A stretch of 64,000 nt of DNA, taken from Sphingorhabdus sp. EL138. Lineage in GTDB: Bacteria > Pseudomonadota > Alphaproteobacteria > Sphingomonadales > Sphingomonadaceae. The notes below the pieces were generated by a model. That model was not told the origin of the DNA and did not search any database. It worked only from the letters and a program-made list of their open reading frames with translations. This document shows, one piece after another, positions 1,138 through 23,604 of this stretch (the first letter of the stretch is position 1; the number at the start of each line of letters is the position of its first letter). Position numbers and translations under genes: made by a program. The DNA lies in assembly GCF_945890115.1 (NCBI RefSeq), contig NZ_CAMDCK010000003.1, positions 62,001 to 126,000 on the forward strand, written 5' to 3'.

Positions 1138-1209
1138 ATCGCATGTCCGATATGGTCAGCAGCATCCGTAAAATAACCGTCTCCCCAGCGCAGGGTGGGG
1201 TGTTAAATA

Positions 1210-1363
1210 TCCTCCCCAGAATGGGGAGGTGGCAGTTGCGCAGCAACTGACGGAAGGGGGCCCGAAGTCTGGCGTAGCGCTTGAAGGGGCCGCCCCCTCC
1301 ACCGTCTGCGACGGTCCCGCTGTTGCTCCGCAACGCCTACGGCTCCCCCGTAATGGGGAGGAA
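1210..1363 (+). repeat. Sphingomonad-type palindromic repeat, copy A
   Basis: GC-rich element of about 154 bp bounded by hairpins: CCTCCCC-AGAAT-GGGGAGG on the left and CTCCCC...GGGGAGGA on the right. Internal marks are TGACGGAAGGGGG, CCCCCTCCACC and CGGTCCCG. Its right 51 nt (1312-1362) are identical to 22334-22384 inside lnt. It lies between crtI and the threonine aldolase gene and encodes nothing recognisable. Confidence 0.8.
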
Positions 1364-1390
1364 TTAAAATAGGGTGGAGGTGGTTGAATA

Positions 1391-1530
1391 TCCTCCCCAT
1401 CGACTTGCGATGGGAAGGGGGACCGCGCCGAAGGCGTGGTGGAGGGGCCTCTGAACGTCCCAAGCCCCTCCGTCAGTCGCCGCTATCGCGCGACCTGCCA
1501 CCTCCCCATCGCAAGTCGATGGGAGAGGAT
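1391..1530 (-). repeat. Sphingomonad-type palindromic repeat, copy B (inverted)
   Basis: Second element, in opposite orientation to copy A and 27 bp from it. Its ends are near-identical inverted repeats, each containing a hairpin: CCCATCG-ACTTG-CGATGGG on the left and its mirror CCCATCG-CAAGT-CGATGGG on the right. On the minus strand it shows the same internal marks as copies A and C (GGGGAGGTGGC, TGACGGAGGGG, CCCCTCCACC, CGGTCCC). The element stays open in one frame, which artificially extends the downstream ORF. Confidence 0.75.
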
Positions 1531-1602
1531 ATTCATGACGCCGACCCTGCCTCTCCCCTTACCCCCTTGACGCCGCGCGCGTTTTCCCGCCATGCGCTGC
1601 TT

Positions 1603-21882: not shown

Positions 21883-23604
21883 GTGCAGAAAATCTCCGCC
21901 CTGCTTCACCGATTTGCGCGCTCGACCGCTATAGGCGCTGGCGCATTGTCGGCTTATGGCTTTGAACCTTGGGGGCTTTGGCCGTTAACGCTCGTTTGCT
22001 TTGCGTTGCTGATCCACCTGATGGCGCATGCCCAAAATACACAGCGGGCTTTCATTCTTGGCTGGCTGTTCGGGGTCGGGCATTTCACCTTTGGTAATCA
22101 ATGGATTGCGGTCGCCTTTACCTTTCAGGCCGCGATGCCGATCTGGCTTGGCTATATCGCCGTGGTCGCGCTGGCGTTGTATTTGGCGGTTTACCCTGCC
22201 TTGGCGGCGGCAGGGGCGTGGCTGCTTTCAAATCCTCCCCGTTCACGGGGAGGTGGCGCGCGCGCAGCGCGTGACGGAGGGGGGCAGGCAGCAGACGCAG
22301 CGTCCGACTTCACGCCCCCTCCACCACCTTCGGCGGTCCCGCTGTTGCTCCGCAACGCCTACGGCTCCCCCGTAATGGGGAGGATTTCCCTCCCCCTCAT
22401 CTTGGCTTTTGCTGGCCTGTGGATCATCACCGAATGGCTGCGCAGTTGGGTGTTTACCGGCTATGCTTGGAATCCGCTCGCGGTCGGATTTGTTTCGCAC
22501 TGGTTTGATCTTTGGCTTCCGACAATCGGGACCTACGGCGCTGGGGGGCTGATGATCTTGGCCAGCGGTGCGATGGCGCTGCTCTGCAGTCGACGTTGGA
22601 CAAACGGATTTGTTTTGGCGGCGATTGTCGGCGTGGCCATTTTGTCGTCGGCCAATATTTATGTGGATGAGCCGTCGCTCAGCGGGCGAACCGCCGTCAC
22701 CGTCGTGCAACCCAATATCTCCCAAGCCGACAAATATGCACCCGGCTATGACGTGATCAACTTCGCCAAGCTGGCGATGCACAGCCGCCCTTTGCCAAAT
22801 CAAGCCCCGCGCCTGATCCTTTGGCCGGAGGCGGCGATTCCGGACTATCTGGAGGACGGATATCCCTATCGTTATTATCAGGGACAGGCTGGCGATAGCG
22901 CGGCTGGCGCGCGCGCGCGGCTCACTACGCTGATGGCAGATAATGATGTGTTGGTGACGGGTGCAAACCGCCTTATTTTTGAAAAACGTCAATTGGTCGC
23001 CGCGCGCAACAGCGTGTCGGCCATGGACGCCTTTGGCCGTGTCCTTGGCCATTATGACAAGGCGCATCTGGTGCCTTATGGCGAATATCTGCCCTTGCCA
23101 TGGTTGCTGAGGCCACTTGGCCTCGCGCGATTGGTGCCGGGCGATCTTGATTTCTGGCCGGGGCCGGGCGCGCAGACAATCACCGTGACCATTGACGGCA
23201 AACCAGTGAAAATTGGGATGCAGATTTGTTATGAGATTATTTTCTCGGGCCAGACGGTGGACCGCAAGAACCGACCCGATTTCATCTTCAACCCATCCAA
23301 CGACGCGTGGTTCGGCACTATTGGCCCGCCGCAGCATTTGGCGCAGGCTCGGTTGCGCGCCATTGAAGAAGGCCTGCCCGTCATCCGCGCAACACCCACA
23401 GGGATCAGCGCCATCATCGACGCCAATGGCCAGATCGTGCAAAGCCTGCCCTTGGGCACCGATGGCCGCATCGATGCCGTGATACCCCGCGCCACAGCAC
23501 CAACCCTGTTCGCGCGATTTGGTAATGTCATTCCGCTGGCTTTTGCTGGGCTGCTTATTCTGTTCGCATTGTTACCGCTTGCCCACCGTCGCGGTTCTCG
23601 CTAA
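21883..23604 (+). CDS. lnt: Apolipoprotein N-acyltransferase with in-frame repeat insertion
   Basis: Inner-membrane enzyme that N-acylates the lipoprotein cysteine, the last maturation step. Start is GTG 21883. N-terminal membrane helices are followed by a nitrilase-fold domain in which the catalytic triad is intact: Glu in LILWPEAAIPDY, Lys in YDKAHLVPYGEY and Cys in GMQICYEI. At 573 residues it is longer than usual because about 50 residues (SNPPRSRGGG...SPVMGRIS), encoded by palindromic repeat copy C, sit between membrane helices. The frame is preserved, so the protein is probably functional. Confidence 0.95.
   Translation: MQKISALLHRFARSTAIGAGALSAYGFEPWGLWPLTLVCFALLIHLMAHAQNTQRAFILGWLFGVGHFTFGNQWIAVAFTFQAAMPIWLGYIAVVALALYLAVYPALAAAGAWLLSNPPRSRGGGARAARDGGGQAADAASDFTPPPPPSAVPLLLRNAYGSPVMGRISLPLILAFAGLWIITEWLRSWVFTGYAWNPLAVGFVSHWFDLWLPTIGTYGAGGLMILASGAMALLCSRRWTNGFVLAAIVGVAILSSANIYVDEPSLSGRTAVTVVQPNISQADKYAPGYDVINFAKLAMHSRPLPNQAPRLILWPEAAIPDYLEDGYPYRYYQGQAGDSAAGARARLTTLMADNDVLVTGANRLIFEKRQLVAARNSVSAMDAFGRVLGHYDKAHLVPYGEYLPLPWLLRPLGLARLVPGDLDFWPGPGAQTITVTIDGKPVKIGMQICYEIIFSGQTVDRKNRPDFIFNPSNDAWFGTIGPPQHLAQARLRAIEEGLPVIRATPTGISAIIDANGQIVQSLPLGTDGRIDAVIPRATAPTLFARFGNVIPLAFAGLLILFALLPLAHRRGSR
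22230..22387 (+). repeat. Palindromic repeat copy C, inside lnt in frame
   Basis: Same element and orientation as copy A, with perfect 11-bp terminal inverted repeats (AAATCCTCCCC / GGGGAGGATTT). Internal marks are GGGGAGGTGGC, TGACGGAGGGG, CCCCCTCCACC and CGGTCCCG. The right-hand 51 nt (22334-22384) are identical to 1312-1362. It stays open in the lnt frame and encodes a Gly/Arg/Pro-rich segment. Confidence 0.9.

Follow-up and report, generated by a model that had tools for sequence, protein, structure and literature searches.

An in-frame palindromic repeat in the lnt gene of a Sphingorhabdus genome and its probable relationship to palindromes flanking DUF559 genes

The window, by which the whole analysed stretch of 64,000 nucleotides is meant, carries an intact gene for apolipoprotein N-acyltransferase (Lnt) that is interrupted, without loss of frame, by a palindromic element. 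The gene, the parts of the element and two related intergenic elements are located as follows.

21883..23604, + strand: lnt, apolipoprotein N-acyltransferase, a single open frame of 573 aa with a GTG start
22230..22387, + strand: palindromic element of 158 bp, in frame in lnt
22230-22283, + strand: left end of the lnt element, a CCTCCCC hairpin with a stem and TGACGGAGGGGG
from about 22314, + strand: right end of the lnt element, after a spacer, with CCCCCTCCACC, the stem GGTCCC ... GGGGAGGATTT
22334..22384, + strand: 51 nt identical to 1312-1362, of a right-end subfamily carrying the CTGTTGCTCCGCAACGCCTACGGCTCCCCC insert
1207..1363, + strand: intergenic copy with the layout of the lnt element (78% identity, E 6.9e-29; exact palindrome match)
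1387..1532, + strand: second intergenic family member with other end types, GGGGGACC with the stem GGTGGAGGGG on the left and a TGACGGAGGGG-type end on the right

The lnt product contains the Pfam domains LNT_N and CN_hydrolase, and its matches to Lnt structures in the PDB (E 5e-43) pass over the insert. A preliminary description of this DNA had placed an element of about 158 bp with 11-bp terminal repeats inside lnt, which was confirmed at 22230-22387; the terminal inverted repeats are perfect over 11 bp, starting with AAATCCTCCCC and ending with GGGGAGGATTT, and a repeat search returned arms of 23 nt that are 83% complementary. The description had also held that the frame stays open with a gain of about 50 residues and that the Glu-Lys-Cys triad is preserved, and both statements were borne out. 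A single reading frame out of six is free of stop codons in the element, and this is the frame that lnt reads, giving a peptide such as DGGGQAADAASDFTPPPPPSAVPLLLR; Glu316, Lys393 and Cys449, the presumed catalytic residues, are invariant in an alignment of 26 proteins. The element has terminal inverted repeats without an internal gene, as is characteristic of MITE-like elements. We regard it as shown, and as practically certain, that a palindromic repeat has been inserted here in frame.

The insert had been proposed to lie between membrane helices, and examination of the topology agreed with this, placing its approximately 50 residues in a loop between transmembrane helices 4 and 5. The loop is assigned to the cytoplasm on the basis of alignment to Lnt structures and of the published position of Arg123 of Escherichia coli Lnt at the cytoplasmic end of H5 (PMC5500888). 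In the AlphaFold model the insert is of low confidence (pLDDT 47-57) and is located between helices 103-116 and 170-190, both of which are confident, with the rest of the fold kept. The C domain of Lnt differs in length by 20 aa, which was initially suspected to reflect a further insert and remains unresolved.

The closest named relatives of lnt come from Sphingorhabdus and other Sphingomonadales genomes, many of them from fresh water. The comparison of orthologues with and without the element, which had been suggested as a check, showed that the helix 4-5 loop measures 10-20 aa in 54 outgroup sphingomonads, in which the segment is missing, whereas within the genus it measures 11-60 aa, with inserts that are always in frame. 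The genus loops hold repeats of the CCTCCCC, CGTC-REP or TCCCCTTTAGGGGA type, or probable remnants of such repeats. Family A (CCTCCCC) occupies the loop in the source genome (G000) and in G034, G020, G017 and G025; the complete form of family B (CGTC type, peptide RHSREGGNP) is seen in G026 and G036, and sequences resembling decayed remnants of it in G003, G019, G004, G033, G024, G006 and G016; and family C (peptide PHPNPSPKGEG) is found in G002. Several palindrome families that are unrelated to one another have thus landed repeatedly in the Lnt loop. It could instead be argued that sphingomonad Lnt has the insert as a functional, conserved segment of its own and not as a foreign repeat, as the insert sequence is nearly identical in G034 and G020; however, this view has practically no standing and is already contradicted by the short outgroup loops, by the near sisters G016 and G017 with their different inserts, and by the PDB structures of Lnt, which have no insert. 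Relative to the source genome, lnt of G034 and G020 has 91% identity in its N part and 74-75% in its C part (L023 and L024 versus L020 and L022), whereas lnt of G003 and G026 is about 90% identical over both parts; this is a sign that alleles have also been exchanged by intragenic recombination.

A search of the source genome (assembly 99.95% complete) with the element found the repeat elsewhere, so that its absence from the rest of the genome, which would have refuted the preliminary description, can be discarded; the other refuting condition, one conserved segment in lnt of all sphingomonads, fails on the short outgroup loops. The intergenic copy at 1207-1363 matches the lnt element over almost its full length, the longest common stretch being 51 nt. 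An identity of 51 nt to 1312-1362 had been reported as the last 51 nt of the element; the identity stands, but it ends 3 nt short of the element terminus. A third copy, previously given as 1391-1530 and now as 1387-1532, has arms of 26 nt that are 92% complementary; it shares the layout of the lnt element as stated, but little sequence beyond the ends. Across the genome, the pattern CCTCCCC-N3-25-GGGGAGG occurs 21 times at about 16 loci, compared with three occurrences of a reversed control pattern, and relaxed palindrome matches in the window number ten against a shuffled mean of 1.3. Family B (TCCCGC...GCGGGA) occupies approximately 25 loci. Among the family B loci that were read in the source genome, none lies inside a plausible gene, and a 223-aa frame spanning one copy was dismissed as apparently spurious. 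It was also observed that these many CGTC-type REP pairs (about 25 loci) are present although the genome has no Y1/RAYT gene.

Copies in other coding frames were looked for, and a family A element was found in frame in a cysteine desulfurase-like gene (Aminotran_5) of the source genome. This element is common to the source genome and G034; G020 and G026 carry an A element at a different junction of the gene, G025 has a third version, and 12 listed relatives have a stretch of 81 nt without the element at the site. The element replaces part of a loop with the loss of some local sequence, and therefore the insertion step was not a simple clean addition. These results support the earlier inference that the family is mobile or has been copied and can serve as an insertion embedded in a protein.

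The insert was compared with known systems. A palindrome that is in frame in a protein gene and absent from orthologues, as is required of a Rickettsia palindromic element, is what lnt contains, and the likeness to such elements that had been drawn originally was judged to be good. RPE-4 and RPE-6 are classed as CGTC repeats in PMC3733652 and thus, by description only, are of the same kind as family B in lnt of G026 and G036; family B of the source genome (TCCCGC..GCGGGA) likewise fits the CGTC-tagged REPs of that article by description only. Family A appears to differ from the Rickettsia elements in its CCTCCCC sequence, in its compound hairpins and in having relatives that flank a DUF559 nuclease gene. 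The earlier statement that REP and BIME sequences normally avoid genes is only partly right; PMC3733652 reports in-gene copies of CGTC REPs in other species, as well as in-gene GTAG REPs.

The system also resembles REP/REPIN elements with their RAYT genes, which are likewise short, dispersed, non-autonomous palindromes in inverted pairs with a linked gene flanked by the same palindromes; the linked gene here, however, is a PD-(D/E)XK nuclease of the DUF559 type and not a Y1 transposase. An explanation in which the palindromes are ordinary REP-like repeats moved in trans by RAYT/Y1 or another IS enzyme, with DUF559 genes as passengers between them, can draw on the fact that REP/RAYT is established, as far as the consulted parts of PMC3116915 and PMC3733652 go, and on the occurrence of family B, a CGTC-type REP, in lnt of G026 and G036. 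We nevertheless consider it quite unlikely. The Y1 transposase (PF01797, Y1_Tnp) is absent from the source genome and is found in three of the 37 genomes of the genus, leaving 34 without it; neither A nor B palindromes occur within 1.5 kb of Y1 genes at any of 16 loci; and flank type tracks the DUF559 tree at several genomic sites, as described below. RAYT/Y1 was accordingly rejected as the mobiliser, the linkage to a Y1 gene that defines REP/RAYT not being met. For CGTC REPs in particular, it has been stated that there is no dedicated transposase (Di Nocera 2013, PMC3733652).

The first clue to another linked gene was an inverted pair of family A ends around one DUF559 gene. DUF559 (PF04480) is presumably a Vsr-like PD-(D/E)XK nuclease, and the sequence matches the endonuclease-like protein of PDB entry 3HRL (E 8e-16). 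DUF559 genes were collected from the genus and order, and each was scored by the best local match of its upstream flank to its reverse-complemented downstream flank. In the genus and its relatives, inverted palindromic flanks beyond the 99th percentile of 3000 random sites were obtained at 53 of 60 DUF559 loci. Many further families across the Alphaproteobacteria gave scores above 14 at 24 of 29 loci and above 16.5, the 99th percentile of the controls for those loci, at 20 of the 29. For the two sets of loci taken together, such flanks are seen at about 1-5% of random sites. Outside the class (L338-L364), ten of 16 DUF559 genes have inverted palindromic flanks scoring above 16.5, with a noisier control because some control windows may overlap units. 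The class- and phylum-level loci were those with the strongest DUF559 scores and not a random draw, and loci in the same operon gap of related species are not independent. The arrangement expected of the proposed unit, in which inverted palindromes of a single type enclose a DUF559 gene, is thus present.

Furthermore, repeat type follows the DUF559 tree, and does so at several genomic sites. In a tree of 61 domains, all 21 genes with classifiable A-type flanks fall in one clade (100/99), the sole other member of which is truncated at the edge of a contig; the nine C2-flanked genes all belong to a separate clade of their own. The flank label changes 16 times on the tree, compared with 39.8 times after shuffling, and none of 200 shuffles was as low. 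Pairs of DUF559 genes have dN/dS values of 0.04-0.31, indicating purifying selection, and therefore the protein has been kept. Genomes with more DUF559 genes hold more such palindromes, with a modest correlation (Spearman 0.43, p 0.008). One genome, G028, has 65 CCTCCCC-type palindromes, of unresolved type, and one DUF559 gene.

The left end of the lnt element aligns over 54 nt to an intact DUF559 unit in the source genome (L141), at that unit's upstream end, with a score of 33.5 against a shuffled maximum of 14.5; the resemblance of its right end to DUF559 unit ends (second A type) is weak. That the lnt insert belongs with the palindromes flanking DUF559 genes is well supported, and we hold it with high confidence.

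Mobility of a DUF559 unit was indicated at one locus, between genes identified by eye from the sequence as YqeY-like and dnaG. The unit is present there in the source genome, G026, G013 and G002, and also in G020 as judged from a partial contig, and G203 has an insert of similar size; a clean empty site of 18 nt is found in G034, G003, G009, G004, G033 and G019. The flanks are 555 nt apart when filled and 18 nt apart when empty, which amounts to an insertion polymorphism. Relatives of G013 (G024, G204, G007 and G027) carry probable solo-palindrome scars, and ends of this unit lie 107-115 bp apart without a gene at about six places (for example, G026:C7:447-553 and G007:C14:147940-148049), with a palindrome family other than that of the lnt insert. 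No target-site duplication was visible at the unit with an empty site, and the lnt site could not be resolved in this respect; some transposon classes produce no such duplication.

The recurrence of DUF559 units in the same gaps (carA-carB, pnt and YqeY-dnaG) of several, partly distant genomes, together with the intragenic recombination in lnt (N part 91% and C part 75% between the source genome and G034), would also fit homing or gene conversion, in which DUF559 cuts empty alleles at fixed operon gaps, the palindromes are structural and the lnt copies arose by recombination and not by transposition. This explanation appears unlikely, as one DUF559 clade is found at several unrelated loci and gene-less elements occur at many sites.

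The in-frame palindrome in lnt and the framing of DUF559 genes by the same repeats suggest an unrecognised mobile element with gene-less offspring. The reading that we consider somewhat probable is that the lnt insert derives from a DUF559 mobile unit as a MITE-like, non-autonomous form without the gene, selected for its frame and its position in a loop; the full form of the unit, a palindromic end, a DUF559 gene and an inverted palindromic end, is proposed with the same reserve. The observed support for this reading consists of the left-end match, the association of DUF559 with palindromes, the co-variation of repeat type with the tree, one empty site and gene-less end pairs. In the inferred mechanism, the DUF559 nuclease would cut at or near the palindromic ends or at the target, and repair would then copy the unit, or short derivatives of it, to new places. 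Landings within genes would survive only with a length that is a multiple of three, one open frame and a tolerant surface loop, the tolerated site in lnt being the cytoplasmic loop already described; further insertions, recombination swaps and decay may then replace one palindrome family by another at this loop. Movement of these repeats by DUF559 is the strongest mechanistic candidate; it has been inferred without being demonstrated, and is favoured by us only slightly.

Several points weigh against this reading. Neither transposition nor cutting nor excision has been observed, and a target-site duplication did not come to light. It is also possible that the palindrome pairs were there first and that DUF559 genes settled in them. 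The palindrome-DUF559 correlation is modest, and some genomes are rich in palindromes with one DUF559 gene, as in G028, with 65 palindromes to a single gene. For the right end of the lnt element the match to DUF559 unit ends is weak, and the insertion in the cysteine desulfurase-like gene was not simple.

For many families of palindromic repeats in bacteria no mobiliser is known, and for CGTC REPs the lack of one has been stated explicitly (PMC3733652). A DUF559 gene between matching palindromes across a class of bacteria offers a testable candidate, and a likely role for a widespread but little-studied 'domain of unknown function'. It may be, with an even chance in our estimation, that DUF559 proteins mobilise a large and so far unrecognised group of bacterial elements with cognate ends for each family, and that the gene-less offspring constitute many of the GC-rich palindromic repeats found in Alphaproteobacteria, repeatedly becoming protein-coding loops. 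In lnt and the cysteine desulfurase-like gene, empty and filled alleles together show selfish palindromes turning into new protein segments, a conversion previously argued mainly from Rickettsia. A link between DUF559 and palindromes was not found in the searched open-access literature naming DUF559 or PF04480, as assessed from titles and abstracts and a single text search, and an earlier description is not excluded, subscription papers and preprints lying outside this scope; the abstract and examined sections of PMC3733652 do not name DUF559. Caulobacter VsrA, which has the same Pfam domain (DUF559, PF04480) and a predicted Vsr-like nuclease fold, has been studied as a possible mismatch-repair nuclease (PMC12907096), and a text search of that article returned no mention of palindromes or transposition.

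A further observation concerns the operon gaps, for which gene names were read by eye from the sequence. The carA-carB gap (L175, L177, L180, L186, L190, L192 and L232) holds DUF559 genes from more than one clade, in genomes that belong to different families, and most of these genes have palindromic flanks; the pnt, glyQ-glyS and odhB-lpd gaps are likewise reused by DUF559 genes.
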